A stretch of 64,000 bases of DNA, taken from an uncultured Bacteroidales bacterium (GTDB lineage Bacteria; Bacteroidota; Bacteroidia; Bacteroidales; WCHB1-69). Under the pieces are notes generated by a model, which had not been told where the DNA came from, ran no database searches, and saw nothing but the letters and a program-made list of their open reading frames with translations. Position numbers and translations under genes: made by a program. The stretch spans positions 20,312 to 84,311 of the forward strand of contig ONAB01000009.1 of NCBI GenBank assembly GCA_900315705.1, given 5' to 3'. Positions 1,939 through 64,000 of the stretch are shown here, piece by piece. Every line of letters begins with the position of its first letter. Position 1 is the stretch's first letter.

Positions 1939-2059
1939 CTCTTTTTTACTGGAAAAAAAATAACGATGTCAGGTCATTATCCCCATTTTTGGGGATAGTG
2001 CACGTTATTCTTTTTTTGTTTTTTTGCACGTTCTTCAGTAAAAAAACGAAGCGAGTTAT
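1935..2059. promoter_or_regulatory. Nested inverted repeat between glmS and feoB
   Basis: Three concentric stems fill the whole gap. Outer: ATAACTC (1935-1941) with GAGTTAT (2053-2059), and TTTTTTACTG (1942-1951) with CAGTAAAAAA (2036-2045). Middle: AATAACG (1959-1965) with CGTTATT (2003-2009), flanked by an A-run and a T-run. Inner: CATTATCCCCA (1975-1985) with TGGGGATAGTG (1990-2000) around a TTTT loop. The inner hairpin plus the T-run at 2011-2017 can act as the glmS terminator. TGCACGTTATTC and TGCACGTTCTTC (1999-2010, 2025-2036) form a direct repeat that could be an operator. The structure ends 7 bases before the feoB start codon, so it could also control feoB. The roles are inferred. 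Confidence 0.6.
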
Positions 2060-2066
2060 CTAATCT

Positions 2067-4541
2067 ATGGAAAATCAGAAAGTTACATTATCCGAGATGC
2101 CCACAGGAAGCAACTGCGTCATCGTCAGGCTCAGTGGTCACGGCGGTTTTCGCCACCGGCTGATGGAATTGGGTTTCGTTAGAGGCGAAAAAGTGCGTGT
2201 GGTGAAGAACGCCCCCTTGCTCGACCCCATAGAGTATGAGATTATGCAGGGACACGTTTCCCTCCGCCGCATTGAGGCGCAGCATATTGAGGTAGTACCT
2301 GTGACTGAGGAGGTTGCGCAAAACTACACCTTCAATGGCACGCTCACCGAAGAGGTGACCCGCATTATGGGCGAGAAGGCCAAAACCATCACCGTGGCGC
2401 TGGTCGGCAACCCCAACTGCGGCAAGACATCCTTCTTCAACCACGCCACCGGTATGCGCGAGAAGGTGGGCAACTACAGCGGCGTCACCGTCGATTCCAA
2501 ACTCGGTGTGTTCAAACATCGTGACTATACCTTCAACTTCGTTGATCTCCCCGGCACCTATTCGCTGACCGAATATTCCCCCGAGGAGCTGTATGTGCGC
2601 AAATATATCTTCGAGAACCACCCCGATGTGGTGCTCAACATCGTGGATGCTTCCAATCTGGAGCGGAATCTCTTCCTCACCACCCAACTTATCGATATGA
2701 ACGTGCCGATGGTGATGGGGCTCAATATGTATGACGAGCTGGAAAAAAACGGCGACCAACTGGATATCCAGGCCCTCAGCACAATGTTCGGATTCCCGAT
2801 TATCCCCACGGTCTCTTCCAAGGGCAAGGGCATCGACAAAGTGCTCGACAGCATTATCAATGTCTATGAGAACCTCGATGGCGTAACCAAGCACATCCAC
2901 ATCAACTACGGTGCCGACATCGAGAAGAGCATCGACCTGGTCAAGAACGAGGTGAAGAAAGACAATGTCCTCAGCAGCGAGTTCCCGGCCCGCTATGTGG
3001 CCATCAAGCTGCTGGAGAACGACAAGGTGACCATTGAGGAGGTCTCCAAGTTGCAGAACACCGACAACATCAGGAAAGTCGCGAAGGAGCAATGCGCCGA
3101 GTTGGAACGCACCTACAAGGAGGATGCGGCCACTGTCATTTCGGGGGCCAAGTACGGTTTCATCCGCGGTGCTTTGCAAGAGACCTATACAATTGGCAAA
3201 GACCGCAGTAAGCAGCGCGCCTATACGGTGGATAATTTGCTGACCAACAGATGGCTGGGATTTCCTATCCTCATCTTCTTCCTCTGGCTGATGTTCCAGA
3301 TGACCTTCACCTTGGGGGCTTATCCCCAGCAATGGCTGGAGATGTTCTTCGGCTGGCTGGGAGGAATGTGCGAAATGGTTCTCCCCGACGGGATTATCAA
3401 GGCTTTGCTGGTGGATGGAGTCATCGCCGGTGTGGGGAGCGTCTTTTCCTTCTTGCCCAACATCTTGATACTCTTTTTCTTTATATCCATTTTGGAGGAT
3501 ACGGGCTATATGGCCCGGGCGGCCTTCCTGATGGACAAACTGATGCACAAGATGGGCTTGCACGGCAAGTCGTTCATCCCCTATATCATCGGGTTCGGCT
3601 GCAGCGTGCCCGCCATTATGGCCACCCGCACGCTGGAAAACCGCAAGGACCGCATCCTGACCATCATCACGGTGCCCTTTATGTCCTGCTCCGCCCGCAT
3701 TCCGGTGTATATGCTCCTTATTTCCGCCTTCTTCACCAAGTATAAAGGACTGGTGCTGATGAGCATTTATTTGCTGGGTGTGGTGGCGGCCATCATCACC
3801 TCGTTGATTGTCAAAAAGATATCGTTCAAAAACCAGAGCGACCAGTTCGTGATGGAATTGCCCCCGTATCGTATTCCGACCCTCCGCAACGCCCTTGTCC
3901 ATATGTGGGACAAGAGTGTGCAGTATGTCAAGAAGATGGGTACGGTCATCCTGTTGGCCACGGTCATCATCTGGGTGCTGGAATATTTCCCGCAGCATAG
4001 TGCGCAACTTGACAGCTACACAGCCCGGATGGAGCAGGTGGAGGCCGATCCGACCCTCACTCCTGCCGAGAAGGAGGCCCAGTTGAAGACGCTGGAGTTC
4101 GACCGCACGGTTTGTCAGAGCGAGAACTCCTATATCGCAAAAATAGGCAAGTTCGTGGCCCCGGTGTTCCGTCCGCTGGGCTTTGACTGGAAGATGAGCG
4201 TTTCGCTGCTCACCGGTGTGGCGGCCAAGGAGATTGTGGTCTCCTCGATGGGCGTACTCTACCACGCTGATCTCAATGCGGACGAGAACTCCTCCACGTT
4301 GCAAAGCAGTCTGAAAGCGCAGAAATGGACGGAAGGGAAGGAAAAGGGACAGCCGGTGTTCACCCCGCTGGTGGCATACGGCTATATGATTTTCATATTG
4401 TTGTATTTCCCCTGTGTGGCGGCCCTGTCGGCGGTGTTTCGCGAAGGCGGTCGCAAATGGGGCCTCTTCTCCATCCTTTACAACACTAGTGTGGCCTGGC
4501 TGGCTGCCTTCCTGATACACACAATCGGGATGCTACTTTAA
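2067..4541 (+). CDS. feoB: Ferrous iron transporter, FeoA-FeoB fusion
   Basis: Imports Fe(II) across the inner membrane. The 824-aa protein begins with an SH3-like FeoA domain (about 1-75, with ELGFVRGEKVRVV), followed by the FeoB G domain: G1 GNPNCGKTS near 113, G3 DLPGTYS near 160 and NMYD near 219 in the G4 place. A long helical domain and the membrane core follow. The core carries the two gate repeats, including GFGCSVPAIMATRTLENR near 509 with its conserved cysteine, and several hydrophobic segments to the C-terminus. FeoA fused to FeoB is common in Bacteroidota and explains the absence of a separate feoA. The gene stands alone between two terminators. Iron-dependent control is likely by analogy, but no clear Fur box is recognised. 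Confidence 0.96.
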   Translation: MENQKVTLSEMPTGSNCVIVRLSGHGGFRHRLMELGFVRGEKVRVVKNAPLLDPIEYEIMQGHVSLRRIEAQHIEVVPVTEEVAQNYTFNGTLTEEVTRIMGEKAKTITVALVGNPNCGKTSFFNHATGMREKVGNYSGVTVDSKLGVFKHRDYTFNFVDLPGTYSLTEYSPEELYVRKYIFENHPDVVLNIVDASNLERNLFLTTQLIDMNVPMVMGLNMYDELEKNGDQLDIQALSTMFGFPIIPTVSSKGKGIDKVLDSIINVYENLDGVTKHIHINYGADIEKSIDLVKNEVKKDNVLSSEFPARYVAIKLLENDKVTIEEVSKLQNTDNIRKVAKEQCAELERTYKEDAATVISGAKYGFIRGALQETYTIGKDRSKQRAYTVDNLLTNRWLGFPILIFFLWLMFQMTFTLGAYPQQWLEMFFGWLGGMCEMVLPDGIIKALLVDGVIAGVGSVFSFLPNILILFFFISILEDTGYMARAAFLMDKLMHKMGLHGKSFIPYIIGFGCSVPAIMATRTLENRKDRILTIITVPFMSCSARIPVYMLLISAFFTKYKGLVLMSIYLLGVVAAIITSLIVKKISFKNQSDQFVMELPPYRIPTLRNALVHMWDKSVQYVKKMGTVILLATVIIWVLEYFPQHSAQLDSYTARMEQVEADPTLTPAEKEAQLKTLEFDRTVCQSENSYIAKIGKFVAPVFRPLGFDWKMSVSLLTGVAAKEIVVSSMGVLYHADLNADENSSTLQSSLKAQKWTEGKEKGQPVFTPLVAYGYMIFILLYFPCVAALSAVFREGGRKWGLFSILYNTSVAWLAAFLIHTIGMLL

Positions 4542-6771: not shown

Positions 6772-7698
6772 ATGAAAAGAGCAGTTTTAATCATCTCAAT
6801 TTTATTATCAATCAATGTGTTAACAGCACAATCCCTCAACTATTACAATTTGGAGCCTTTTACCGTTGTGGACATAAACTTCGTTGGGGAGGTGGTCATA
6901 AAACAATGCGCCATAAGTAATGAAGTGACCATTGAGTCCAATGATTACAAATTTATTGAGCACACTCACGTTGTGGTTTCTGACGGAAAACTTTCCATCT
7001 ATATGGACAAGAATTCGTCTCTTGAAAAAAAAGACTATATCCAGATGGAGATACATTTGCCCCGTTTGGAGAAATTGACCTTGCTTGGCGCAGGCAATGT
7101 GAAGGTGGAAAAGAGAAACGAGCCGAATCTGATGGTCATCAACTCGGGCGTGGGCGAATGCACCCTCCAATGCCTGAAAATCGAAGGAACATTGGAACTG
7201 CACAACAAGGGTGCAGGCGGCATCAAGGTCTCATCTCCCGATCCCATTCGGCAACAGACCCTGCTCATCAACAATTCCGGCGCAGGTGATGTGTCCATTC
7301 TTGGAAGCCACGTCAGCAATTCATTAATCGTCAATAATATGGGAGCTGGCGACGTTTCGGTGAACCTGATGAGCATCCCCACCGATGAATTGATTCTCCA
7401 GAACAAAAGCGTGGGAGACATCATAATTCAAAATGTTTTGGCAAAAAGGTTGGAATTGCGCATCCTGAGTACGGGCAATTTGAAGATGATGAACGGCAAA
7501 GCGGATGAGATGACTTTGGAGAGTGTCGGTGTCGGAAACGTCCACCTGCTGTTGAAAGTCGCTACCGCGCACATCACGCACGGCGGCGTGGGCAATATCA
7601 TAGCCACCGTGACGGGAACCGCCTACCTCACCGAAAAATCCGGGCTGGGGAAGGTCACCATTCACGGCGGTGGAAAAATCGTAAAGGAAAAGCCTTGA
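6772..7698 (+). CDS. Secreted DUF2807 (GIN domain) protein
   Basis: A 308-aa exported protein. The start at 6772 gives a clean signal peptide (MKRAVLIISILLSINVLTAQ); an upstream in-frame ATG at 6751 only adds a polar leader. The rest is a DUF2807 head domain: repeated short beta segments with the G-x-G-[ND] rhythm (GAGNVKVE, GVGECTL, GAGGIKV, GAGDVSI, GAGDVSV, GVGNVHL), forming a right-handed beta-helix-like stack. Family members are surface or periplasmic proteins of Bacteroidota without a firm biochemical role. It starts 39 bases after the sigma/WG gene with no terminator between, so the two may be co-transcribed and the protein could be part of that response. Confidence 0.85.
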   Translation: MKRAVLIISILLSINVLTAQSLNYYNLEPFTVVDINFVGEVVIKQCAISNEVTIESNDYKFIEHTHVVVSDGKLSIYMDKNSSLEKKDYIQMEIHLPRLEKLTLLGAGNVKVEKRNEPNLMVINSGVGECTLQCLKIEGTLELHNKGAGGIKVSSPDPIRQQTLLINNSGAGDVSILGSHVSNSLIVNNMGAGDVSVNLMSIPTDELILQNKSVGDIIIQNVLAKRLELRILSTGNLKMMNGKADEMTLESVGVGNVHLLLKVATAHITHGGVGNIIATVTGTAYLTEKSGLGKVTIHGGGKIVKEKP

Positions 7699-53693: not shown

Positions 53694-56030
53694 TTAGAAT
53701 CCCCGGGTGGGACGGGCGCTGGTGGATATCACACTGCTGCGGCTGCGGCCGCTGCTTCCGGCTGTGGGACGTGAAGCGGTGGAAGGAGCGGGTCTGGCAG
53801 TCGTGCCAGAGGGTTTGCTTACGGTGGCAGGCTTGCTGGCAGTGGTGGGCCGGCTCCCCGTGGAGGGCGTGCTTGTGCGGGGTGTGGAGGAAGTGGGCGT
53901 GGTGGATGGCGCCGACGGCTTGGCGGCGGTGGGAGGTGCGCTCGGACGTGCGGCGGGGGCGCTGCTCCCGCCCGACGACTTGTAGTTCGTGGTGCTGCCC
54001 ACCCGGCTGATTTTGGAGGAGATGTTGTGCCCGCCCGTGGTGAGCATATCGTTGTAGGTCACGATGATGGAGGGCGTTTTAAGATAACGTCCCCCGCTCT
54101 TGCCCAGGCTCCCCACAAAATAGTCGCGCACCTTGGCCAGGTCGAGTCCGAGGAGGGGAAGGTGGTTCTTGCCGACGTGCCGCAGGAGGTTGTTGACCTT
54201 CTGTGCCCGCAGCATCCGGTTGTAGGTCTCCTGGCTGTTGATGGTGGTGCCGCGCGGGTAGGAGAGATAGCGGGCCAGTTTGGAGTACTCCTCTTCCGAC
54301 AGTCCCTTGAGCATCGTGCGCACGTTGCGGAACTCCTCCGCGATGGCGTTTTTCTCCTGCCGGTTCACGTTCTGGAAGATGTCCCGTTCGTGCTCTTCGG
54401 TATAGGTGAAGTTGTATTCGCGTTCGTTTTGGCGTAACTGCTTGTCCACCTCTTTTTTGCCGTAAGTGTCGAAATGGATGCGGGAAAGTGTGTCGGCGAG
54501 TTGCTCGATCTGGTTGTCGGGCAGGCTTTTCAGCACATCCAGCAATGAGCGGCAGGGCTTGGCCAGGAGGTAGGGTTTGTTGGAGGGAAAGGCGGGGTGG
54601 AGGAGTTTGCCCTTGTAATGGATGCCGTTGTCCATAAACAGCTGGTAGAGGGCCGTGTACTGCACCACACGGGCGAGGTCGGTGTTGCCAGTGTGGGCGA
54701 AGTAGTTGCCGGCCTGCCGCTCGTATTGGGCGCCCACGCTGGTGCTGCGCTCCTGCGAGTGGAAATAGGAGACGGGCAGCGCCCCTGTGCGGTTGAGCGT
54801 GTAGATGGTGTACTCCGGCAGGTCGATGGCGTACATCGTGTTGGCGGTGTTCCAGTTATAGACCAGCTCGTGAAGCCCCAGCTTCTTGAAAAGCGGCTGG
54901 TCGAAGGGAAAATACCCGGGGGAGGGGTAGCGGTAGCAGCTCTCCTGGATGGTGCCACTTTCCGACCAGTCCTTGAGCAGCACGTCGGTGATGGTGAGCA
55001 GGTGGCCCAGTTCGGTGTTCTCGAGTTCGCGGCTGAGGTATGTGGGACACCAGTCGCGGCCATTGGCCATCTTGCCGGCCATACAGTCGTTGATATCCAG
55101 GCTTTGCGACAGTTCCTTGCTGCTGATGGAGGCGATGAGCAGGACGGTCTCCACGCGGAGGGGCGGCAGGGTCTCGAGGTTGGCTTCCCGCTCGCGGCCG
55201 ATGATGACCAGGGTGGTGGAGTCGCGCAGGGCGCCGAGGATGAGGTCGGCGTCGAGGGCGAAGCGTCGGATGTCGCCCACTTGCCGGATGAGGTCGCTGT
55301 CGCGGCGGATGCACCAGGCCACGAGGCCGGGGGCGCGGCTGAAGAAGACGCCGCGGCGTTTTTTCCGGAACATATCGCTGACGGTGATGTCGTGGGCGGT
55401 GTCGCGCTCATCGATGAAAGCCTCCTCGGCGGCGAAGAACCAGTCGTCGAACTCGCCGAGGGTAATCTGGTAGTCAAGGCTCTCTTTGGTGAAATAGTGA
55501 CGTTTTTCGTTGCCGAGCAGGTCGAAGGCGCGGGGTTTGTAGTCGGAAAGGTATTGCTGCTGAGAGAGCTTGGCCACCAGGTTGTCAAGGTTCTCGGTGG
55601 TGGCGTTGCCCAGCACGATCATCAGGTCGGTGATGCGGCCGTCGTAGCCTATTTTGAAATGGTGTTGGGCAGTCTGGTGGGTGAACTTTTGGCAGATTTG
55701 CTCGATGCTGTCGGGTTCGAGGAAGGGGGCGGGTTCGGCGATGAGGATGAGGCGGCTGCTGTCTTCGAAGGAGGCGGTGCCGATGGTCTGGTAGTGCATC
55801 CGGAAATGCTGCCGGAACAGGTCATATACCGAGTCCTGTTTCTGGTAGGCGAGGGTGGTCTCCAGTGCCACGTGCTGGTCGGGGATATACTCCTTTTTGA
55901 GGAGCACGGCGGTTTGCTGCTTGATGCTCTCCGCCACCTTGGTGTGCTTTCCGAAAATGGCGAACGCGGCAATGGCGGCAAGCACCGCAGCGCCTATGAT
56001 GAGAATCGTTTTCTTTGTCGTAGAAGTCAT
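53694..56030 (-). CDS. Membrane-anchored protein of unknown function with Ser/Thr/Pro/Ala-rich tail
   Basis: A 778-aa protein with an N-terminal membrane anchor (TILIIGAAVLAAIAAFAIFG, about 8-27) and a large outer domain of about 620 residues that I do not recognise. The last 100 residues are low-complexity Ser/Thr/Pro/Ala with Arg and Lys (RPSAPPTAAKPSAPSTTPTS and similar), like a flexible linker or an O-glycosylation tract. The central part has Trp/Tyr-rich segments (GYFPFDQPLFKKLGLHELVY) and several Glu-Arg helices (EKNAIAEEFRNVRTMLKGLS). Its length, anchor and tail suggest an envelope-localised protein. It is upstream of the DUF819 gene in an apparent two-gene unit. Confidence 0.6.
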   Translation of the reverse strand: MTSTTKKTILIIGAAVLAAIAAFAIFGKHTKVAESIKQQTAVLLKKEYIPDQHVALETTLAYQKQDSVYDLFRQHFRMHYQTIGTASFEDSSRLILIAEPAPFLEPDSIEQICQKFTHQTAQHHFKIGYDGRITDLMIVLGNATTENLDNLVAKLSQQQYLSDYKPRAFDLLGNEKRHYFTKESLDYQITLGEFDDWFFAAEEAFIDERDTAHDITVSDMFRKKRRGVFFSRAPGLVAWCIRRDSDLIRQVGDIRRFALDADLILGALRDSTTLVIIGREREANLETLPPLRVETVLLIASISSKELSQSLDINDCMAGKMANGRDWCPTYLSRELENTELGHLLTITDVLLKDWSESGTIQESCYRYPSPGYFPFDQPLFKKLGLHELVYNWNTANTMYAIDLPEYTIYTLNRTGALPVSYFHSQERSTSVGAQYERQAGNYFAHTGNTDLARVVQYTALYQLFMDNGIHYKGKLLHPAFPSNKPYLLAKPCRSLLDVLKSLPDNQIEQLADTLSRIHFDTYGKKEVDKQLRQNEREYNFTYTEEHERDIFQNVNRQEKNAIAEEFRNVRTMLKGLSEEEYSKLARYLSYPRGTTINSQETYNRMLRAQKVNNLLRHVGKNHLPLLGLDLAKVRDYFVGSLGKSGGRYLKTPSIIVTYNDMLTTGGHNISSKISRVGSTTNYKSSGGSSAPAARPSAPPTAAKPSAPSTTPTSSTPRTSTPSTGSRPTTASKPATVSKPSGTTARPAPSTASRPTAGSSGRSRSSVISTSARPTRGF

Positions 56031-56065
56031 ATTGCCAATTGTTGACGGGGTTTTGCTCCACGCGG

Positions 56066-56073
56066 CAAAGATA
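56066..56073 (-). promoter_or_regulatory. -7 element of the 778-aa protein gene
   Basis: CAAAGATA on the + strand reads TATCTTTG on the minus strand, 36 bases before the start at 56030. Confidence 0.5.
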
Positions 56074-56079
56074 GGATTT

Positions 56080-56673
56080 TTATGGGATGGCAGGATCTAA
56101 AACCCAACTGCCTTGCTCGAAATACGGAAATGACAAGTTGGAAAGAACATTGTATAAATCATATTTTAGTTTGTAGGGGAAACTTCCTGTTGGAAATTCA
56201 GTGGAAAACAGACAGTCTGTTTGAACGCTACAGTTCTTTTTCTGTCCATTCATAATTAAATAGATAGACTCTCCATCCAAAACCTCTACGAAACAGGGGA
56301 TGCTGCTGTTTAAAGTTGTCTCAAAGTATTTGCTGATATTAGAACTATCTACGCTAAAATTAGCTGCTTCTATCGGTTTCTTCCATTGAATCTTATTTGG
56401 AGAAATGAAACAACTACGAATATGTTTGTCAGTATGGTACCATAAAATTTTCCAGTTATTAAAGGCAATACCATAAATATATAGGGTGTCTGATTTTATC
56501 ATAGCCTTTCGTATAACTCGGTTTGTTTTGCGCTGCAAACATAGTTCAGAATAACTGAGTCCTCTGTAATCGAAATATTTTTCCGTTTTGTTTGGCCAAT
56601 GCGAGGGAATGGTACAACAATAACACATTGATGAGAACAAAAATAAAAGCAAGGCTATTTTACACTTTTTCAT
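56080..56673 (-). CDS. Probable immunity protein of RHS cassette A
   Basis: A 197-aa exported protein (MKKCKIALLLFLFSSMCYCC); the signal ends in a cysteine cluster that may be lipidated, though the lipobox is not canonical. The mature part is a mixed alpha-beta protein (KSDTLYIYGIAFNNWKILWY, SVDSSNISKYFETTLNSSIP) that I do not recognise. Start and stop of the preceding toxin overlap by four bases (ATGA), the typical coupling of a toxin with its immunity partner. The immunity role is inferred from this position and from the equivalent genes in cassettes B, C and D. Base composition is A+T-rich compared with the rest of the window. Confidence 0.6.
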   Translation of the reverse strand: MKKCKIALLLFLFSSMCYCCTIPSHWPNKTEKYFDYRGLSYSELCLQRKTNRVIRKAMIKSDTLYIYGIAFNNWKILWYHTDKHIRSCFISPNKIQWKKPIEAANFSVDSSNISKYFETTLNSSIPCFVEVLDGESIYLIMNGQKKNCSVQTDCLFSTEFPTGSFPYKLKYDLYNVLSNLSFPYFEQGSWVLDPAIP

Positions 56674-57812
56674 TGTATATCCTCCTGTCTTCCCATTTTT
56701 TTAAAATCTTCATAATGTATTCGCACAAGTGTTCCGCGCTCATTGTAGAATGACACTCCGCTATCGTTTGGACAAACCACAATGGCACATCCTTTGAATC
56801 CTGCTTTACGCCAAGAATCCATTTTTTCATAATCTAGGGATGATGGCACAGAACTACAGGTGTGAACATGCCATATATACTGCACTTTTTCAGGAGGGCC
56901 TCCTATCAGTGCTCCCTTTCCGCCTATTTTAAATGGTTCAATCGTTCTCTTCTGAATAGTAACCCCATTGTAAGTTGTGGTTTGAGTGGGTGTGCCGGGG
57001 TCCCAAAAACGAGCAGTTTTATCTCCAAATAAGGAATGACCTCCGTATTCCACTCTGTTTTCTGGTGAATTCCCGCTCTTTAAGGATTGATCAACAGTAA
57101 GTTGGATATCCTGTTGGATTTGTCCAGTTGGAATATGAATGACCATATCACTAGGGGATAAATCACCAGTATAAAACTTGCCACTTTTTGTTGCTGCTTT
57201 AACTTCTTTTACCTTATCTCCCAAAACCAAGTAAGAGTTTGATTCACATTGTCCATTGTCTCCGATCTTTTTAACATTTCCCCAAAAATTCTTAGCATAA
57301 ATAGGATCTTCCCCATTCGGATCCACCAGCTTCACCGGATTATTCGCGCAATACACATACGGGCTCAGCGAGGGATATTTGTCGCTCATCGGATCGACGC
57401 TGAGCCAGATGCTCAAATCGGAGGAATAATATCTTGAACCAAAGTAGGATAGGCCGGTTTCTGTGTCGCGTTCTTTTGCGGAGAAGGTGTGAGAGAATGA
57501 AGAATTGAGAATGGAGAATGGAGAATGAAGAGTTGTTGTAGCGTCGGCACATCGTGGGTGTTGTTGGGGGTTCCGCCATACGGTGGCTGTCCACCGTGGC
57601 CGGAAACTATAGGGCGTGTGGCGGAATGGTGCGGCAGAAATGCAGGCCGTAGGTCTGCAGGGCTCGGTAGCAAAGGCGGCACACGAGCACATACGCACGC
57701 CGTAGGTGTGCGGGCACGAGTCAGGCACCCGCGGGCCACACGGATCCGCGCGGAAGATGTCCCCGGCGGGAATCATAGGCGGTAACGGGCTATATGTGCG
57801 GGTGGTGGGCAT
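56670..57812 (-). CDS. RHS-core cassette A with JAMM/JAB-like toxin domain
   Basis: A 380-aa protein. Residues 1-106 are a Pro/Cys-rich leader that looks like translated intergenic sequence, ending in a heptamer-encoded stretch (HSPFSILNSSF). Residues 107-168 are the RHS-associated core (SHTFSAKERDTETGLSYFGS... to VDPNGE). The C-terminal domain carries VEYGGHSLFGD, then HVHTCSSVPSSLD with His315, His317, Ser324 and Asp327 in a JAMM-like arrangement (one residue shorter than the classical H-x-H-x7-S-x2-D), then AIVVCPNDSGVSFYNERGTL, which looks like the closing strands of that fold. A JAB-type deubiquitinase-like metallopeptidase is the best fit. The YD-repeat shell of full RHS proteins is missing. 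Delivery is unknown. Confidence 0.7.
   Translation of the reverse strand: MPTTRTYSPLPPMIPAGDIFRADPCGPRVPDSCPHTYGVRMCSCAAFATEPCRPTACISAAPFRHTPYSFRPRWTATVWRNPQQHPRCADATTTLHSPFSILNSSFSHTFSAKERDTETGLSYFGSRYYSSDLSIWLSVDPMSDKYPSLSPYVYCANNPVKLVDPNGEDPIYAKNFWGNVKKIGDNGQCESNSYLVLGDKVKEVKAATKSGKFYTGDLSPSDMVIHIPTGQIQQDIQLTVDQSLKSGNSPENRVEYGGHSLFGDKTARFWDPGTPTQTTTYNGVTIQKRTIEPFKIGGKGALIGGPPEKVQYIWHVHTCSSVPSSLDYEKMDSWRKAGFKGCAIVVCPNDSGVSFYNERGTLVRIHYEDFKKMGRQEDIQ
57311..57495. repeat. RHS core repeat, copy A (185 bp)
   Basis: Starts CCCCATTCGG and ends at GTGTGAGAG (+ strand reading). The same 185-base length, without gaps, occurs at 59259, 60835 and 62796. Most differences between copies look synonymous. 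Confidence 0.9.
57495..57532. repeat. Heptamer array at the leader/core junction of cassette A
   Basis: About five 7-base units (GAATGAA, GAATTGA, GAATGGA, GAATGGA, GAATGAA) directly at the 5' edge of the core. They are of the same type as the arrays at 32983, 36553 and 52491. Confidence 0.8.
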
Positions 57813-57833
57813 TGGCGGTAGTTTTGGAGGTGG

Positions 57834-57841
57834 CGAAAGTA
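57834..57841 (-). promoter_or_regulatory. Putative -7 element of cassette A
   Basis: CGAAAGTA on the + strand reads TACTTTCG on the minus strand, one base away from TAnnTTTG, 22 bases before the start at 57812. Confidence 0.4.
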
Positions 57842-57902
57842 TAAAAAATCGGGTTGGCTTGATGTTCGAAATTTGGGTTCCATAGAGTAAAACAAGTACG
57901 GA

Positions 57903-58643
57903 TTATTGGTTTTCCAAAAGAATCTGTTTGAGTTTCATCTCGGGTAATTCATTTTTTCTTTTCACGGTAGCCAAATAGGTTTTCCAAAAGTTATCGCCAC
58001 CCATCAAATCAGGTTGTAAGACACGTAAGGATAATATGCAATCATCGAAATGTTTTTTTTGGTCCAAAGGAACATTTACATATCCAACAGTTATCCCGTA
58101 TGACACGTGAAACCATTTCCATGCCAGTCCATCGCTTATCCCTTCATACACAATGGTGTCTGTTTTTACTGTTGAGAGCGTATCAAGAAGTCTAAATTTC
58201 GGATTCCCTTTCCATTGTCCATTCTCGTTGAAAATGCGGTGTTTTCTTAGTGATTGATAGACAGGGAAAGAAACGCCCGTTGAATCTGCGACTAAATAAC
58301 TTGCAACATATTGAGCAGTGTCTGTGTTAACCATTTCGTATGCTTGTTCTCCGTACTTTTCCAGCATATGGTTTATTAGAAACTGCCACCACCCACGAAA
58401 AGAATTGTCTGCATATTCAATGAATAGGCAAATCGATTGCGCATCTTGCCCGTATCTAAAAATATAACAGAATTCAGCGTCGCCATAAATATACGATACT
58501 TGTTTTGTATAAGGGATATTCATTGAATAGCCCACCCTGTCTTTCCCGGGTTTATAACAGACTGTAACGTAATCCTGTGTTTTACAGCTGCTCAAAATTA
58601 TAGCAAGCAGAGAAACGAACCAAAAAAATTTATGTTTGTACAT
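57903..58643 (-). CDS. Probable immunity lipoprotein of RHS cassette B
   Basis: A 246-aa lipoprotein. The start at 58643 (MYKHKFFWFVSLLAIILSSC) gives a canonical lipobox LSSC; an upstream in-frame option at 58700 would overlap the toxin gene and is not preferred. The mature protein begins VTVCYKPGKDRVGYSMNIPY and resembles the cassette C partner at 59590 (V-x-YKP-x5-GY-x-IP pattern, then YIF and SICLFIEYADNSF). It lies 10 bases after the toxin stop. Immunity is inferred from position. Being a lipoprotein, it would act in the envelope, so the toxin is probably met in the periplasm or at the surface. Confidence 0.68.
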   Translation of the reverse strand: MYKHKFFWFVSLLAIILSSCKTQDYVTVCYKPGKDRVGYSMNIPYTKQVSYIYGDAEFCYIFRYGQDAQSICLFIEYADNSFRGWWQFLINHMLEKYGEQAYEMVNTDTAQYVASYLVADSTGVSFPVYQSLRKHRIFNENGQWKGNPKFRLLDTLSTVKTDTIVYEGISDGLAWKWFHVSYGITVGYVNVPLDQKKHFDDCILSLRVLQPDLMGGDNFWKTYLATVKRKNELPEMKLKQILLENQ

Positions 58644-58653
58644 AACTTGACAG

Positions 58654-59541
58654 TTAGAAAAGAGGAGAAATACCATCTGGCAAAAAAGGAGTTTCCCCAT
58701 GAAGTACTGTACTACCTGTGCCAGCTGTTTCGGCTTTGTTTTTGATATAATGAGTACGAAGAGGAAGCCCCAATTCTTGTCTTATTTGGTTTTCGTGATA
58801 TACGGCTTTCCAGTCACATATCATAATGTCACCGTAGCCTCCTGGACCTGGTTCCACTGAATATGTGTTTTTCATATAGTCATAGCCATGACATAACTCA
58901 TGAGCCAGACTGGTCACTCCATTTCGAAGCATCCCCCCTTCAGTCGGCACAAGTCCTCCTGAGGTATTCCATTTAATCTCCGCATTTGCTTCAATGTGTG
59001 GATTTCTGCTTTTGGTAAAGGTGCAGAACTTACTTTCCTCGGCTTCGGTAATCTTCACTTTAAACCCTGTGTCATTTGCTAAACCAGTTACAAGTTCGTT
59101 TCCTGTTTTCGTATCAGCAATTTTATTCAATGTATTTTGAGCTTTATAGAAAAAACTGCCTTCTTCTGCAAAATATTCATTTTTTAATTCTCTATCAGTA
59201 TATAATTTCCCTCCAGAATAATAGCACTTCTGCCCTCCCCACACTATTATTATCTCTTCCCCATTCGGATCCACCAACTTCACTGGGTTGTCCGCGCAAT
59301 AGACATACGGGCTTAATGACGGATATTTGTCAGCCATCGGATCGACGCTCAGCCAGATGCTCAAATCGGAACTATAATAGCGTGAACCAAAGTAAGATAG
59401 GCCTGTTTCTGCGTCGCGTTCTTTGGCGGAGAAGGTGTGAGAGGAGTGAACAGTAATCAGTGAAAAGTAATCAGTAAGAGACAAATCCCTGGCAGTCGCA
59501 GGGGTATGAGGAAAAGGGAGATATGTGCGGGTGGCGGGCAT
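58654..59541 (-). CDS. RHS-core cassette B with M91-type zinc metallopeptidase toxin domain
   Basis: A 295-aa protein. Residues 1-33 are a leader (MPATRTYLPFPHTPATARDL...) built partly from a heptamer array, residues 34-96 the RHS core (SHTFSAKERDAETG to VDPNGEE). The toxin domain has the zinc motif HELCH (214-218) and a downstream Glu250 in ENQIRQELGLPLRTHY. That combination matches the M91 (NleD-like) peptidase family, known in type III effectors and polymorphic toxins. The target is unknown. The leader shares a start segment with cassette A (MP-x-TRTY), and a perfect -7 box is 18 bases upstream. The YD-repeat shell is absent. Confidence 0.78.
   Translation of the reverse strand: MPATRTYLPFPHTPATARDLSLTDYFSLITVHSSHTFSAKERDAETGLSYFGSRYYSSDLSIWLSVDPMADKYPSLSPYVYCADNPVKLVDPNGEEIIIVWGGQKCYYSGGKLYTDRELKNEYFAEEGSFFYKAQNTLNKIADTKTGNELVTGLANDTGFKVKITEAEESKFCTFTKSRNPHIEANAEIKWNTSGGLVPTEGGMLRNGVTSLAHELCHGYDYMKNTYSVEPGPGGYGDIMICDWKAVYHENQIRQELGLPLRTHYIKNKAETAGTGSTVLHGETPFLPDGISPLF
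59259..59443. repeat. RHS core repeat, copy B (185 bp)
   Basis: Aligns gap-free with the copies at 57311, 60835 and 62796. Reads as the conserved core SHTFSAKERDAETG to LVDPNG. Confidence 0.9.
59445..59480. repeat. Heptamer array at the leader/core junction of cassette B
   Basis: Units AGTGAAC, AGTAATC, AGTGAAA, AGTAATC, AGTAAGA: strict 7-base period next to the core. Same position as the arrays in cassettes A and C. Confidence 0.8.
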
Positions 59542-59558
59542 TGGTGATTTTGATTGGG

Positions 59559-59566
59559 CAAAGGTA
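59559..59566 (-). promoter_or_regulatory. -7 element of cassette B
   Basis: CAAAGGTA on the + strand reads TACCTTTG on the minus strand, a full match to TAnnTTTG, 18 bases before the start at 59541. Confidence 0.55.
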
Positions 59567-59589
59567 TGGAACTGGTGTTACACAGGGGG

Positions 59590-60141
59590 TTACAGATCTA
59601 GTAAAACCGCAATGGAATCTACAACGATAGTTGTGTCTTTGAGATTCGTAATATTATTGATTAGCGTATCATATATTTTCTTATTTTTTCGTTTCACGTT
59701 GAAATAACCGTATGTTATTGCACTTATGCCACCATTTGAAAATAAATCTGGATTTTGGTGTCGTTGATCTTTCAGTATATATACTGTCTTCCAATATCTA
59801 TTGTAGCGATGTATTATTGTGTCTTCATTCACCCATTTATAGCGTCTTATGTCGTCCATGCCCTCCTCTACAATAGTGTCTTGGGCGTTATCCAAAAACT
59901 GGTTTCCGTAATATATATTGTTTGAAATAAATAACGCCTCATCACCATTCTCAATGATAAAAAAGTAATCGAAGTGCCTATCAGGCTGTCCAACACTAAC
60001 ATAATAATCAAATGGAATTGGAACTTCCAAAACATATCCCTCTTCGTATGCGTTGGGCTTGTATATTACGTTTTTAATTATAGGTTCTTTACAACCTATT
60101 AGAATGATGGATAACAATATGTATAATGACGTTGCTCTCAT
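59590..60141 (-). CDS. Probable immunity lipoprotein of RHS cassette C
   Basis: A 183-aa lipoprotein (MRATSLYILLSIILIGC, canonical lipobox). The mature part opens NVIYKPNAYEEGYVLEVPIP and continues YFFIIENGDEALFISNN. Both match the cassette B partner in pattern, so the two are likely diverged copies that guard against the two M91 toxins. It follows its toxin by 31 bases. Later segments (YWKTVYILKDQRHQ, AITYGYFNVKRKNKK) have no family I recognise. Immunity is inferred from position and the homology. Confidence 0.68.
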   Translation of the reverse strand: MRATSLYILLSIILIGCKEPIIKNVIYKPNAYEEGYVLEVPIPFDYYVSVGQPDRHFDYFFIIENGDEALFISNNIYYGNQFLDNAQDTIVEEGMDDIRRYKWVNEDTIIHRYNRYWKTVYILKDQRHQNPDLFSNGGISAITYGYFNVKRKNKKIYDTLINNITNLKDTTIVVDSIAVLLDL

Positions 60142-60172
60142 ATCTTCATATTCATATAATTAATAATACATT

Positions 60173-61198
60173 TTAGCGTGTTACAGTCAATCTCCATAAA
60201 TCTACTGCAGACTTGAAGGTGCTTTTCAGTAAATGTTCAGGAAAAAAAGGATTGCCGTTTTGTAAAAGGTCCGGTTTTGTAGGCTCTCTTTCGTTCCAAC
60301 TATTAATCGAATATCCGTAATTGGTGCGGTATGGGAGATTGAGTTCACTTCTTATTAAATTTTCTCTATATACGGCCATCCATTCCTCGGTCTCCAATGG
60401 TGAAGATATGGGGTGCACTCCAGACCAATATGTTTTTCCATTTGCCAAATCGTATACGTGAGAAAACTCGTGGCCTAAATCAGTCGTTGCATTTCGCAGA
60501 AAACCATTTGTTGTAGGCAATATGTTTCCTTCTGGATTCCAATAAATGGTTGCCGATTGCAAACTCATCGTGTTATAGTTGCATACGACATCACCAACTC
60601 CACTTTTCCCTTTTTGATTGCCTTTTCGATTAATCGCATCTATAATTCTCACATCTTTTCCACTATTCCCTTCAAAAGGGGTCATCAATTCGTTCCCTTT
60701 TTTTGTTCCTCTCAACGTGTTTAGGGATTGAAGTGCTTTTTCTTCGAACGAATTGTTTATTGGCACGAACTCTTTGCCGTCTTTGGAATAAAGTTTTCCA
60801 TTGTTGTAAATAAAATCGCCAACGTATATCTCCTCCCCATTCGGGTCCACCAACCTCACCGGGTTGTCCGCGCAGTACACATACGGGCTCAATGACGGAT
60901 ATTTGTCACTCATCGGGTCGACGCTGAGCCAGATGCTCAAATCACTGCTGTAATAGCGTGATCCAAAGTAGCTTAAGCCTGTTTCCGCGTCCTTTTCTTT
61001 GGCGGAGAAGGTGTGAGAGGAGTGAACAGTGATCAGTGAAGAGTGATCAGATGGGGATTGGGTAAGGAAATGCGCTGCGGTGGCTACAACCGCCCATCCA
61101 TCCCCGTCAGGGGATGCATACCTGTAGAGGGCGTTCCCGCGAGGGGCCCAAATCCCCGTCAGGGGATTCACAGGACGGTATGGTTGGCGGCGGTGCAT
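60173..61198 (-). CDS. RHS-core cassette C with M91-type zinc metallopeptidase toxin domain
   Basis: A 341-aa protein. The leader (1-60: NPLTGIWAPRGNALYRYASP and HSSLITVHS) comes from palindromic and heptamer repeats. The RHS core follows (about 61-122, KEKDAETG to VDPNGEE). The toxin part has GTKKGNELMTPFEGNSGKDV, the zinc motif HEFSH (243-247) and Glu279 in ENLIRSELNLPYRTNYG, again the M91 pattern. It has the same motif spacing as cassette B but a distinct sequence, so the pair probably arose by old duplication or separate import. The immunity gene is 31 bases downstream. Confidence 0.78.
   Translation of the reverse strand: MHRRQPYRPVNPLTGIWAPRGNALYRYASPDGDGWAVVATAAHFLTQSPSDHSSLITVHSSHTFSAKEKDAETGLSYFGSRYYSSDLSIWLSVDPMSDKYPSLSPYVYCADNPVRLVDPNGEEIYVGDFIYNNGKLYSKDGKEFVPINNSFEEKALQSLNTLRGTKKGNELMTPFEGNSGKDVRIIDAINRKGNQKGKSGVGDVVCNYNTMSLQSATIYWNPEGNILPTTNGFLRNATTDLGHEFSHVYDLANGKTYWSGVHPISSPLETEEWMAVYRENLIRSELNLPYRTNYGYSINSWNEREPTKPDLLQNGNPFFPEHLLKSTFKSAVDLWRLTVTR
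60835..61019. repeat. RHS core repeat, copy C (185 bp)
   Basis: Gap-free copy of the core seen at 57311, 59259 and 62796. It carries a KEKD variant at the start in place of KERD. Confidence 0.9.
61021..61050. repeat. Heptamer array at the leader/core junction of cassette C
   Basis: AGTGAAC, AGTGATC, AGTGAAG, AGTGATC: four 7-base units touching the core. Confidence 0.82.
61100..61167. repeat. Twin palindromes in the leader of cassette C
   Basis: ATCCCCGTCAGGGGAT occurs at 61100-61115 and again at 61152-61167. Each is palindromic except for its centre. They are translated as part of the leader. Confidence 0.8.
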
Positions 61199-61220
61199 CG
61201 GCGGTTATTTTTTGAAGGGG

Positions 61221-61228
61221 CGAAAGTA
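61221..61228 (-). promoter_or_regulatory. Putative -7 element of cassette C
   Basis: CGAAAGTA on the + strand (TACTTTCG on the minus strand), 23 bases before the start at 61198, as in cassette A. Confidence 0.4.
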
Positions 61229-61353
61229 CGAAAAATTTGCACATTGCACATAAGCAACCATCACCATTGATTTCTCACTGGCCTTTGCCGATGATGCAGA
61301 TTGTTATCCTGCGAGGTTGCTAAAACACTTAATGTTTAACTGTCCAACTTTAA

Positions 61354-62106
61354 TTATAAAACAAATACATATTTGTAAAGTTCTTCGTAGAAATCCTGTA
61401 GTATAAAAGGATTTTCAAACAACAACACTTCATTTATGGTTTGGCCAGAAAGGAAATGCGGATGGTTTATTTGAGTATTGACATTATTGCATTGTTTGTT
61501 TTCTCTTGTCGAATGAAATATAAAATCTGAAAGATTATATGTACTGTCTTTGAGTGTATATACAAGTGTACTGTCTTGAAAAAAATGAGGATTTCTTATT
61601 CCAATGGTCAAATCAGCGTATTCCCTGTATTTGACATAGATGCTCATTGTTGATGTATCAAGTTGGAATGACTCTACCACTTTATTACAAATATTACTAG
61701 TTTGAGCCGGTGGCATTATGAATTTGACAAATTTGTTGTTAAATTGTTTCTGTTGTCTTTCCCTTCTTATAGATTGTTCTTGTTTCACCACATAAATCGT
61801 ATCCGTTTTTTCAAGAATAATCTGTGTAGTATATATTTGTCCAAAATCAAGACATTCGAGATTTCTGTTGTAGCAAATAATGAATGGATTTATGGCAAAA
61901 GGATTGGGTGAACTTGGCGAATGAAAATTATAAAATAGCATATATAAATTACTATCCGTGAAAAAAAATTGATTGCAATCGTATATGTTTTCACGATTAA
62001 TTCGAATATCCATTTTTGACAATAAATTCTTCTCTCTATTCGAGTAACAACATATGAATAATATGCTCATCAAAGTAAAAGAAAGGATGTTTTTGATATT
62101 TTTCAT
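61354..62106 (-). CDS. Probable immunity protein of RHS cassette D
   Basis: A 250-aa exported protein with a signal MKNIKNILSFTLMSILFICC, ending in Cys-Cys and probably a lipoprotein with a non-ideal lipobox. The mature part has Phe/Asn-rich beta segments (FFTDSNLYMLFYNFHSPSSP, YNRNLECLDFGQIYTTQIIL). I do not recognise the family and see no similarity to the cassette B/C partners. It starts 6 bases after the toxin stop, so it is tightly coupled. Very A+T-rich. The immunity role is inferred from this placement. Confidence 0.6.
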   Translation of the reverse strand: MKNIKNILSFTLMSILFICCYSNREKNLLSKMDIRINRENIYDCNQFFFTDSNLYMLFYNFHSPSSPNPFAINPFIICYNRNLECLDFGQIYTTQIILEKTDTIYVVKQEQSIRRERQQKQFNNKFVKFIMPPAQTSNICNKVVESFQLDTSTMSIYVKYREYADLTIGIRNPHFFQDSTLVYTLKDSTYNLSDFIFHSTRENKQCNNVNTQINHPHFLSGQTINEVLLFENPFILQDFYEELYKYVFVL

Positions 62107-62112
62107 AAGTAT

Positions 62113-63033
62113 CTAACGAATGATAGGTTTGGGAATTGGCTTCAACTTCTTACTAATATACTCTCCGTATGAAGGGAGTCGCGAAAGTTCTTTAATTGTT
62201 TTATTGTAATATATAGTGCTTCCTATCATAAAACCCAACCTCTGTGCATACTGAGTACTTGAGGATTCCTTTGAGAATCCGATAATTCCCGTATCATTAT
62301 AATCTTTTATACTCTCCAAACAATCAAATGCTAACCGTGAGGCATCCCAAGAGAAACCGTTTATGCCAGCCACTAACCCTGCAGCAATATTTCCGATATC
62401 TCTTGCGGAAGCCCATATCGGTAAACCATTAATTTCTCCTATTGGCATACCTCTATAAAATTCATCCACCGTTGTATATTTAACGCTATTTGTCCCATCC
62501 GTTCGTTTAAAATCGTAAGGACCTTCTGGTCGGGCTTTTATCATATAAGACAATAGTCCACTTTTTAAAACTTTATTATTCAAAAAATTTCGTCCCTTTT
62601 GATTGTTTGGATCAATTCTACCTTTAAATTCGCCAGTTTCACTATTGTAGAAAGATTCAGGTGTTGCAGAATATGCTAATAACTTTCCATTGCTTCCATC
62701 GGATTTTCGCAGATAAATACCATTGTCGCCATCTTTCACATTGCCTCCAACGACGGTGTAAGTTCCATCACCATTGTCAACAACTTGTGTGCTTTCCCCA
62801 TTCGGATCCACCAACTTCACCGGATTGTCCGCACAATACACATACGGGCTCAGAGACGGATATTTCCCACTCATCGGATCGACGCTGAGCCAGATGCTCA
62901 AATCGGAGCTGTAATATCTTGATCCGAAGTAGGATAGGCCAGTTTCCGAGTCGCGTTCTTTTGCGGAGAAGGTGTGAGACTCCGCAGGGGGACGGGACAA
63001 GAGTGAAATGGAATATGTAAAGCGTTGGCTCAT
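62113..63033 (-). CDS. RHS-core cassette D with Ntox44-like toxin domain
   Basis: A 306-aa protein. The leader is the shortest (about 17 residues, MSQRFTYSISLLSRPPA). The core follows (about 18-80, SHTFSAKERDSETG to VDPNGES). The C-terminal domain has ARPEGPYDFKRTDGTNSV, then ASARDIGNIAAGLVAGINGF and RLAFDCLESIKDYNDTGIIG. The GN-x-x-AG spacing and the preceding YDFK fit the Ntox44 (bacterial toxin 44) pattern, as far as can be judged by eye. The activity of that family is unknown to me. A perfect TATCTTTG lies 20 bases upstream. It is nearest to the recombinase gene. Confidence 0.72.
   Translation of the reverse strand: MSQRFTYSISLLSRPPAESHTFSAKERDSETGLSYFGSRYYSSDLSIWLSVDPMSGKYPSLSPYVYCADNPVKLVDPNGESTQVVDNGDGTYTVVGGNVKDGDNGIYLRKSDGSNGKLLAYSATPESFYNSETGEFKGRIDPNNQKGRNFLNNKVLKSGLLSYMIKARPEGPYDFKRTDGTNSVKYTTVDEFYRGMPIGEINGLPIWASARDIGNIAAGLVAGINGFSWDASRLAFDCLESIKDYNDTGIIGFSKESSSTQYAQRLGFMIGSTIYYNKTIKELSRLPSYGEYISKKLKPIPKPIIR
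62796..62980. repeat. RHS core repeat, copy D (185 bp)
   Basis: Gap-free copy of the 185-base core. The adjacent leader lacks a heptamer array, unlike A, B and C. Confidence 0.9.
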
Positions 63034-63052
63034 ACGTGATTGTTTGGTGCTG

Positions 63053-63060
63053 CAAAGATA
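63053..63060 (-). promoter_or_regulatory. -7 element of cassette D
   Basis: CAAAGATA on the + strand reads TATCTTTG on the minus strand, 20 bases before the start at 63033. Confidence 0.6.
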
Positions 63061-63088
63061 GTTTTTTTTTAATATAAAAGAAAAAGGT

Positions 63089-63096
63089 TATTTTTG
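63089..63096 (+). promoter_or_regulatory. Possible -7 element toward the recombinase
   Basis: TATTTTTG 170 bases before the recombinase start. The leader it implies would include the 11-base tandem repeat. Confidence 0.4.
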
Positions 63097-63157
63097 CGCC
63101 ATCTTTTTTTTTAGCGATCGACTGAAATACCTTTGAGACAGGCTTTTTTGTTGACTG

Positions 63158-63179
63158 AACTGCGCCAAAACTGCGCCAA
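63158..63179 (+). repeat. 11-base tandem repeat upstream of the recombinase
   Basis: AACTGCGCCAA occurs twice in direct tandem, 87 bases before the recombinase start. Candidate arm or core site for the recombinase; not proven. Confidence 0.6.
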
Positions 63180-63265
63180 GGACTATGAAAACGCGATATT
63201 TTCGGATAAAAACACATCAATACTATATATACAATATTTAATTAGTTTTACTATCTTTTTACTCT

Positions 63266-64000
63266 ATGGCTATAGCTTTCATCGATTTCAGACCCGCACA
63301 AGTAATGGGGGACAAGGAACTGTATGTCTGTTACTACGTGCTTGACCCCGCCAGCGACAAACTCAAACGGATGCGCATACGTTGCAACCGTGTCAAAAGC
63401 CCCGGGGAAAGGAAGAGATACACGGCACTGCTCTGCGCGGAAATCAACAGGAAACTCTACAACGGCTGGAACCCGCTGATCGGAGAAGAAGCCGCAACGA
63501 AGCGGGTCTCCATTGTGGAGGCGGCCACGGACTTCGTCCGTGAGAAGGAGAAAGACCTCCGCAAGGACACCGTGCGCAGCTACAGGTCCAAACTGTCGTT
63601 CTTCACCGGATGGTGCGAGAAAACCGGCATATCGGACTGGCTCTGCGGGCGCTTCACCAGCAGCCAGGCGGCGAAGATTCTCGACGAATACGGAGGAGGA
63701 AGAAGCACCTGCGCATTCAACAGTATGCTCCAGTTCCTGAAGAGCCTGTTCCGGTCGCTTGTCTCCTGCGGCCTTGCCGCGCACAACCCGTTCGCGGCAT
63801 TCAAGGCGAGAAAGAGGGAGGCCAAACGCAGGGTCACCATCCCGAAACAGGACCGCCGGAGAATCCTCGGCTACTTCCACAAACGCGGTATGAACGGATA
63901 TGTCGCGATGATCCGGCTGTGCTTCAAATACCTGGTCCGGCCAAAAGAGATTCTTATGCTCAGGGTCCGCGACATCGACTTCGACACGGGGCTCCTCCGC
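63266..64000 (+). CDS. Tyrosine recombinase (site-specific integrase), 3' end outside the window
   Basis: An open frame from ATG at 63266 to the window edge, 245 codons so far. The N-terminus (MAIAFIDFRPAQVMGDKELY) is the arm-type region; residues about 90-190 form a SAM-like core-binding domain (KDTVRSYRSKLSFFTGWCEK, FNSMLQFLKSLFRSLVSCGL); the catalytic domain opens at about 200, with the first catalytic Arg region at YLVRPKEILMLRVRDIDFD. The remaining active residues are beyond the edge, so activity is not established. It is richer in G+C than the toxin cassettes and reads away from them. Such recombinases insert mobile elements. Confidence 0.85.
   Translation, partial: MAIAFIDFRPAQVMGDKELYVCYYVLDPASDKLKRMRIRCNRVKSPGERKRYTALLCAEINRKLYNGWNPLIGEEAATKRVSIVEAATDFVREKEKDLRKDTVRSYRSKLSFFTGWCEKTGISDWLCGRFTSSQAAKILDEYGGGRSTCAFNSMLQFLKSLFRSLVSCGLAAHNPFAAFKARKREAKRRVTIPKQDRRRILGYFHKRGMNGYVAMIRLCFKYLVRPKEILMLRVRDIDFDTGLLR

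Follow-up and report, generated by a model that had tools for sequence, protein, structure and literature searches.

What keeps a row of Rhs toxin tips intact, and apparently equipped for expression, where no Rhs shell gene is in view beside it? The question is raised by the final 64 kb of contig ONAB01000009.1 (C31) of an uncultured Bacteroidales bacterium (assembly GCA_900315705.1); this whole 64,000-nucleotide (nt) stretch, whose base 64000 is the contig end, is called the window below. At positions 56080 to 63033 it carries four minus-strand units that have in common a gap-free RHS core and differ in their 3' parts, each with a small gene downstream. On the strength of sequence comparisons, we favor the reading that the array consists of displaced Rhs tip/immunity cassettes, whose expression is probably maintained by promoters traveling with the cassette in front. 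The array would be one arm of a recombinase-headed shell locus linked to the type IX secretion system (T9SS), in which displaced cassettes are stored. Its units and partner genes are as follows (aa, amino acids).

62113..63033, minus strand: unit 1, the array head, with an 18-aa class A leader (~62980-63033), the core (~62797-62979), and a tip without assigned fold
61354..62106, minus strand: immunity candidate 1, lipoprotein-like
60173..61198, minus strand: unit 2, with a 60-aa leader, RHS core (~60836-61018), and Peptidase_M91 tip with HEFSH (Pfam, TIGR03696)
59590..60141, minus strand: immunity candidate 2, lipoprotein-like
58654..59541, minus strand: unit 3, with a 33-aa leader, RHS core (~59260-59442), and Peptidase_M91 tip with HELCH (Pfam, TIGR03696)
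57903..58643, minus strand: immunity candidate 3, lipoprotein-like, 89% identical in locus L145 of the comparison set
56670..57812, minus strand: unit 4, with a 106-aa leader, RHS core (~57312-57494), and a tip with an HxH...SxxD (JAMM-like) motif
56080..56673, minus strand: immunity candidate 4, with a signal peptide or lipoprotein signal

The first-pass annotation, made from the sequence alone, had described four RHS-core units with diverging tips, each followed by an exported-type gene, and this description is borne out. All four units match TIGR03696 (Rhs_assc_core; E values of 2.5e-17 to 1.6e-16), and the gene behind each of them is predicted, from a simple hydrophobicity rule, to encode an N-terminal export signal. 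The common 185-bp core of that annotation is indeed gap-free but not identical among the copies, the 186-nt cores agreeing at 81-88% of DNA positions; a 224-nt direct repeat is likewise gap-free in its four copies, with 77-88% identity to the reference copy. The layout is that of orphan Rhs modules, a core fragment followed by a variable tip. The tips part ways after a ...DPNG motif, and the sole related pair (58654-59259 and 60173-60835) is 36% identical, both members being Peptidase_M91 domains.

Exchange of tip and immunity blocks between shells and arrays

Most counts given below rest on 138 core hits in stretches fetched from this genome and its same-genus relatives, which cover many, not all, of the arrays. 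The genome itself has 15 core matches, 13 in frames of 289-424 aa and 2 in large genes (a 3143-aa frame on contig C4 and a 2036-aa frame on contig C32). Of these, the C4 gene (3139 aa) is a genuine shell; behind it lie its partner gene and a single orphan unit. An RHS gene of more than 1000 aa with a matching core, which the first-pass annotation had envisaged elsewhere in the genome, thus exists: the C4 core matches that of the window across its 3' part (89% over 35 residues).

Comparison across genomes points to tips and immunity genes that are common to shells and orphans. The orphan on C4 agrees with shell L074 (83% identity over tip and immunity gene), the C4 shell with orphan L081 (74%), an orphan on C25 with shell L064 (68%), and an orphan on C3 with shell fragment L100 (58%). 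Shells, or a shell fragment, of relatives thus bear tips known from other orphans of this genome; the four window tips occur on no shell among the fetched loci. The shared blocks begin at the core and take in the tip and the immunity gene. Along the five closest pairs, low identity ahead of the core gives way to 63-100% per 30 nt within it; ~97-100% is reached at the core 3' end in four pairs, and in the fifth the rise comes within the core, near position 110. By these alignments the earlier proposal of recombination at the core stands, with breaks in or beside the cores. Cores are also slightly more alike within genomes than between them (similarity of 0.791 versus 0.759 for 103 cores, reached in 0 of 1000 permutations that do not correct for shared ancestry), as expected if cores recombine. 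A site-specific DNA site inside the core was considered and dropped: third codon positions are the most variable, and no fixed short site was seen in it.

Closely related genomes, which the first-pass annotation had proposed to compare for cassette swaps, keep flank and center and differ in cassettes. What genomes G006 and G021 (flank proteins listed at 81-99% identity) share is the two flanks, the two outermost cassettes, and the center made up of recombinase and head; no inner cassette is common to them at 88% or more over 400 nt. G018 and G019, whose DNA flank is 97% identical, agree in the recombinase, head leader, and head core, and share no cassette. The presence of one tip on a G018 shell fragment and on the G019 head (96% identity) prompted the idea that shell and head might exchange entire arms by inversion. 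This is not supported, as arm orientation is the same in both close pairs and the G018 fragment has a different flank.

Predicted start signals, probably carried by the preceding cassette

Each window unit has a TAnnTTTG or TAnnTTCG element, which we take to be the Bacteroidota-type -7 promoter box, 17-22 nt ahead of its ATG.

63053..63060, minus strand: -7 box TATCTTTG, 19 nt ahead of the unit 1 ATG
61221..61228, minus strand: -7 box TACTTTCG of unit 2
59559..59566, minus strand: -7 box TACCTTTG of unit 3
57834..57841, minus strand: -7 box TACTTTCG of unit 4

Among the 113 orphans with a complete 5' side (units cut by contig ends being excluded), 56 have the strict form of the box (TAnnTT[TC]G) at 8-32 nt ahead of an in-frame start, the distance being 17-23 nt in 51 of these 56; among internal in-frame ATGs, the background, only 31 of 1229 have it. 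When box-ATG starts were picked regardless of frame, which yielded them in 47 of 110 orphans, 45 of 49 proved to be in frame with the core and 43 open to it. These frame and promoter statistics, like the export counts below, leave out the different RHS gene of locus L025, and they point to starts that would serve the core and tip behind them.

The first-pass annotation had assigned to every unit its own leader and promoter. A box and a start are present in all four, but in the clearest exchanges the leader travels with the preceding cassette. Where two genomes have a cassette in common, they also share the leader of the next unit in 5 of 14 testable pairs; for the leader of the cassette itself the count is 2 of 34 (one of these stretches including core), and for leaders paired at random between genomes it is 8 of 273. 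In the four clearest pairs the next promoter-leader region is 76-100% identical up to 100 nt before the next core, while that core is 72-82% identical and the next tip unrelated, so that in these four cases the alignments assign the leader to the cassette in front of it and not to the toxin that it drives. Of the 14 pairs, the seven closest all have an unrelated next tip; for the remaining three of these seven, the similarity tails off ahead of the next leader or inside it.

The leader itself is nearly neutral, with a pooled ratio of nonsynonymous to synonymous polymorphism (pN/pS) of 0.80 over 49 nonindependent pairs. Set against the divergence ratios (dN/dS) of 0.10-0.50 in the tips, this makes it look like a frame-keeping start rather than a functional domain.

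Some regularities of the leaders may be recorded here. Box-started leaders often have ACA or CCA as codon 6 and TAT as codon 7, encoding Thr/Pro-Tyr (e.g., 63013-63018 on the minus strand of the window), a pattern that looks fixed at the DNA level, and several shell N termini have a similar RTYS stretch behind their first hydrophobic stretch. Low-complexity TTCACTnTTCACT-like repeats abut the core at many leader ends (e.g., window 59443-59480). In two orphans (L031:5195 and L032:4835) the RHS core is diverged or shortened and the leader start pattern is kept (MIHTATYPPK and MNQTITYQPK).

Toxin tips and exported partners

By the same hydrophobicity rule, an export signal is present in 110 of 120 partners, 60 of 168 background open reading frames, and 3 of 101 orphan toxins, the partners being those of at least 100 aa that follow a tip of intact length. 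Such a small downstream gene follows all four window units, and in relatives these genes move together with the tip. The tips appear to be under purifying selection, with dN/dS of 0.10-0.50 in 15 of 18 picked pairs for which both rates could be estimated. A Pfam scan of 127 of the 131 tips (four short ones were dropped) returned Toxin-JAB1 for 15 and Peptidase_M91 for 7, with one to three each for other peptidases, Ntox21/23/44, TseH, and YkuD; an HExxH motif occurs in 32 of 131. Together, these observations support the toxin-tip/immunity reading of the cassettes that the first-pass annotation had put forward.

As for the window, the unit 1 tip, which is related to tips of L028 and L098, matched no Pfam family above the cut-off and no PDB sequence, and that of unit 4 had no Pfam match despite its HxH...SxxD motif (subthreshold Pfam matches of window proteins were disregarded). 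An Rfam scan of 55500-64000 and PADLOC, run on the eight array proteins and a full-length homologue of the adjacent recombinase (L086), gave no match.

At L145:2785-3910 a unit 3-like cassette has lost 408 nt of its toxin in frame, including the HELCH region. It still has an in-frame leader, core, and stop, along with the immunity gene that is 89% identical to that of unit 3, a pattern as expected if immunity is the part that is kept.

A tyrosine recombinase at the array head

Beyond unit 1 the window ends inside a divergently oriented recombinase gene, with repeats in and ahead of the head unit.

63266..64000, plus strand: tyrosine recombinase gene, running off the contig end after its first 245 codons and divergent from unit 1 (full-length homologue, L086)
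63162..63178, minus strand: direct repeat TGGCGCAGTTTTGGCGC between the recombinase and the head unit
62962..62986, minus strand: imperfect inverted repeat TGCGGAG...CTCCGCA at the head-unit leader-core junction, a predicted, possible recombinase site

The full-length homologue L086 matches Phage_integrase at 3e-23. The genus search found 15 recombinase places of about 47% identity or more, and all 14 recombinases with sequence in front (L207, which starts at a contig edge, was left out) face an RHS core 271-345 nt away. For seven distinct homologues with 38-45% identity, the 2.3-8 kb of sequence fetched around each contains no RHS core. In five loci (L070, L073, L087, L116, and L217) the N-terminal part of the recombinase alone is matched. 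Class A units, which have leaders of ~18-21 aa beginning MNQ/MSQ... and include unit 1, stand first in the array in 20 of 22 cases, 13 of them with a recombinase. Comparison of loci thus points to a linkage of recombinase and array in part of the genus.

The inverted repeat scores, on average and out of 10, 8.0 at 20 class A junctions, 5.23 at 84 class B junctions, 5.8 at 11 shell junctions, and 5.16 in shuffled sequence, counting junctions that fit the core-edge pattern; the head junction of the window scores 7. A third TGGCGCA copy lies at 63095-63101, and TGGCGCAnnnnTGGCGC-like repeats recur between recombinase and head in most of these loci. They are also found at several related recombinases elsewhere, including L218 next to tRNA-Ser. 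Both kinds of repeat are candidate recombinase sites. The L218 stretch (600-4273) is perhaps a small integrated element: a related recombinase lies next to tRNA-Ser (4186-4273), TGGCGC repeats occur at 702 and 4110, and the two sides have a 17-nt word in common.

The shell and its predicted delivery

The absence of a shell, which the first-pass annotation stated for the window, is real there but does not carry over to the array: the contig breaks off within a recombinase gene that, in other loci, stands at the front of the shell operon. At the end of contig C4 the last 42 recombinase codons are followed by a gene with a T9SS sorting tail and then by the shell. Contigs C31 and C25 both break off inside the N-terminal part of the recombinase, so that one of them should abut C4, and a shell probably adjoins the array. 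In relatives the sorting-tail gene follows the recombinase within ~50 nt, by alignment, in L086, L093, L207, L213, and L076/L077, and only after 1.7-2.0 kb in L214 and L215. A shell of ~3,100 aa (SpvB/TcdB/RHS) is next in order in all four loci read far enough. The sorting-tail gene precedes all nine shells whose upstream sequence was compared, in L206 by a weak match. SpvB, TcdB_toxin_midN, and RHS domains are present in the shell of L088; the C4 shell was assigned by alignment to it (four pieces at 25-53% identity) and by an RHS_repeat match.

The sorting domain sits on the gene before the shell, with a Pfam hit below the cut-off in L088, and the genome has 98 matches to T9SS sorting domains in addition to SprA. 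We infer, from the tail gene adjoining the shell, that the shell may be delivered through the T9SS. Type VI secretion (T6SS) or contractile delivery was rejected, as neither VasE (PF05936) nor a contractile sheath (PF04984) was matched in the genome, other T6SS families not having been searched. A second, different RHS gene (2028 aa) on C32, locus L025, also has a gene resembling those with T9SS sorting tails directly at its start.

A proposed mechanism for displacement without silencing

Under the reading that we favor, recombination in or beside RHS cores would shift a block composed of a tip, its immunity gene, and the 3' promoter, start codon, and open leader behind them. Landing behind a shell or head unit, this block would give that carrier a new tip. 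Its 3' promoter and start would come to lie ahead of the core that belongs to the pushed-back tip, and in frame with it, so that the displaced toxin-immunity pair should stay an expressed operon rather than fall silent as a fragment. The cell would probably gain lasting immunity against kin in which the old tip remains in use, together with a reserve of tips. The short toxin made in the cytoplasm would probably be harmless there, because the tips would act in the envelope, the predicted destination of the partners with their presumed protective role.

Several observations weigh against this account. The strict box is absent from 57 of 113 orphans, several of which have near variants, and units on C25 and C3 of this genome are examples of orphans without an in-frame ATG or with a frameshift ahead of the core. 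At a 60-nt threshold the next leader is not shared in 9 of the 14 pairs; among the seven closest, two (78% and 73%) share no next leader and one (74%) only 71 nt. Co-movement of the next leader, moreover, is expected from any core-to-core exchange and is by itself no proof of selection. Pfam assigns no family to most tips and places a few in Ntox21, Ntox23, or Ntox44, families without an established envelope target; several toxins are truncated, and some lack a clear immunity gene. A cruder first rule scored 31 of 132 partners as soluble, many of which show a signal peptide by eye, and partner dN/dS reaches 0.91 in one pair. A recombinase homologue of at least 47% identity is present in only 8 of the 22 core-bearing genomes of the genus, many of them incomplete.

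Should the start signals indeed lie on the exchanged block and the recombinase hold a fixed place by the shell in part of the genus, tip movement and silence become testable. If immunity persists after a toxin has gone out of use, as L145 suggests, the arrays would document past conflicts among gut bacteria.

Relation to known systems

Integrons and the R64 shufflon have a recombinase next to gene ends that can be exchanged, arranged in an array whose head is fixed. In the present arrays, by contrast, no attC- or sfx-like site is apparent for each cassette, the inverted repeat is found mainly at head junctions, and the mapped breakpoints fit recombination at cores.

Displaced Rhs tips and their recombination are already known (PMC2935791 and PMC3967940; for contact-dependent growth inhibition [CDI] and Rhs, PMC3150448; for toxin cassettes generally, PMC3482391), whereas the traveling start signals and the linked recombinase are new. 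Like the enterobacterial rhs-CT/rhsI orphans, the arrays are strings of a core fragment, a nonhomologous tip, and a putative immunity gene, with tips that, outside the window, recur on full-length genes and with signs of core-mediated recombination and displacement. Those tips, in the portions of Jackson 2009 (PMC2935791) and Koskiniemi 2014 (PMC3967940) available to us, and of Poole 2011 (PMC3150448) for CDI orphans, mostly lack start signals; the first of these portions describes displaced tips as largely silent spares, leaves their movement open, and states that an integrase with Rhs was not known. Here, in contrast, predicted promoters and in-frame starts (in all four window units and about half of all orphans) ride on the preceding cassette, the partners are of the exported type, and part of the genus has a linked recombinase. 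In Salmonella, according to the available part of PMC7043789, main and orphan Rhs tips are transcribed from internal promoters. The tips described here would similarly have promoters of their own; the Salmonella promoter lies inside a conserved coding region, whereas these lie between cassettes, ahead of a separate leader.

The same Bacteroidota shell type occurs in "Candidatus Ornithobacterium hominis," for which the sections of PMC6421346 at hand describe a large rhs gene with SpvB and TcdB signatures and displaced tips; TIGR03696 tips and unique small downstream genes are further points of likeness, and those sections report neither promoters of the tips' own nor a recombinase. The rAID arrays of Bacteroidales, described in the accessible text of PMC12247911 as immunity genes beside a tyrosine recombinase, are alike in position, a recombinase standing next to a co-oriented array of interbacterial-defense genes. 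They differ in that the present cassettes are toxin-immunity pairs on RHS cores, divergent from a recombinase that precedes a shell; tip frames are of usual length in most units, so that the array does not consist of immunity genes alone. No recombinase-headed Rhs tip array was found in the titles and abstract beginnings listed in searches of open PMC papers.

Alternative explanations

The recombinase might itself capture, excise, or flip cassettes in the manner of integrons or the R64 shufflon, via the class A junction repeat and the adjoining TGGCGCA repeats. This is compatible with displacement at cores, and we regard it as a tentative possibility, suggested by the invariant facing of recombinase N termini and RHS cores, the position of class A units at array heads, the high score of their junction repeat, and the G018/G019 head arms, where everything but the cassettes is held in common. 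However, arrays exist without the recombinase, as seen from the minority of genomes that have it, from its absence at 7 of 20 class A heads, and from the shell contig of G021 and genome G046, which gave no recombinase match. Four of the five mapped exchange breaks are near the core 3' end and none is at the head junction; arm orientation is unchanged in the two close species pairs; and class A leaders are homologous, so that the junction repeat may persist by descent. A combined form, which could be called an "Rhs integron," holds that a domesticated tyrosine recombinase, located where the shell operon starts, acts on tip cassettes and moves them both at the shell and at the head site, each cassette bringing the promoter and start for the tip pushed back, so that the whole tip library stays expressed. 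We consider it conceivable though doubtful. That a close recombinase is missing from the majority of core-bearing genomes, and a shared next leader from the majority of the 14 pairs, weakens both of these recombinase readings and slightly weakens displacement with traveling promoters as well.

That the tips might be short toxins by themselves was also raised by the first-pass annotation; in the form considered here, each short protein would be secreted, its leader serving for export or loading. Leaders do begin in frame behind promoters and often have Thr/Pro-Tyr at codons 6 and 7, but the latter pattern looks like one of DNA, the leaders are nearly neutral, only 3 of 101 orphan toxins have an export signal, and VasE and sheath matches are missing from the genome, all of which makes independent secretion unlikely. 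As a main reading, a secretion role of the leader was dropped on the same pN/pS and export counts. The proposal made for Salmonella Rhs tips, that orphans are intracellular type II toxin-antitoxin modules (PMC7043789, in the part available), could draw on the orphans' own promoters and their intact, selected toxin frames. It is similarly improbable here, since 110 of 120 partners look exported and most therefore could not neutralize a cytoplasmic toxin. Least credible, and already disfavored, is the idea of silent, decaying tip fragments with chance open frames: a minority of units are truncated or frameshifted, yet 45 of 49 starts are in frame, tip dN/dS indicates selection, and promoter boxes are enriched before in-frame starts. 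Displaced cassettes with traveling promoters thus remain the reading that we prefer.

Occurrence in the genus

The core search covered 41 genomes, of which 23 matched: the present one, 21 of 24 same-genus relatives, and one other. Across the order, 41 of 247 genomes match at an E value of 1e-12, four of them of this genus, and some carry orphans and shells. The named relatives are uncultured Bacteroidales, with sources including rumen, other ruminant stomach, and horse-faeces samples. One contig labeled Clostridia (L133) has a Bacteroidales-type core and is possibly misbinned. In locus L083 the unit at 4156 has an insertion of ~26 codons within its RHS core, with the frame staying open, and the core of the unit at 7508 is also lengthened.

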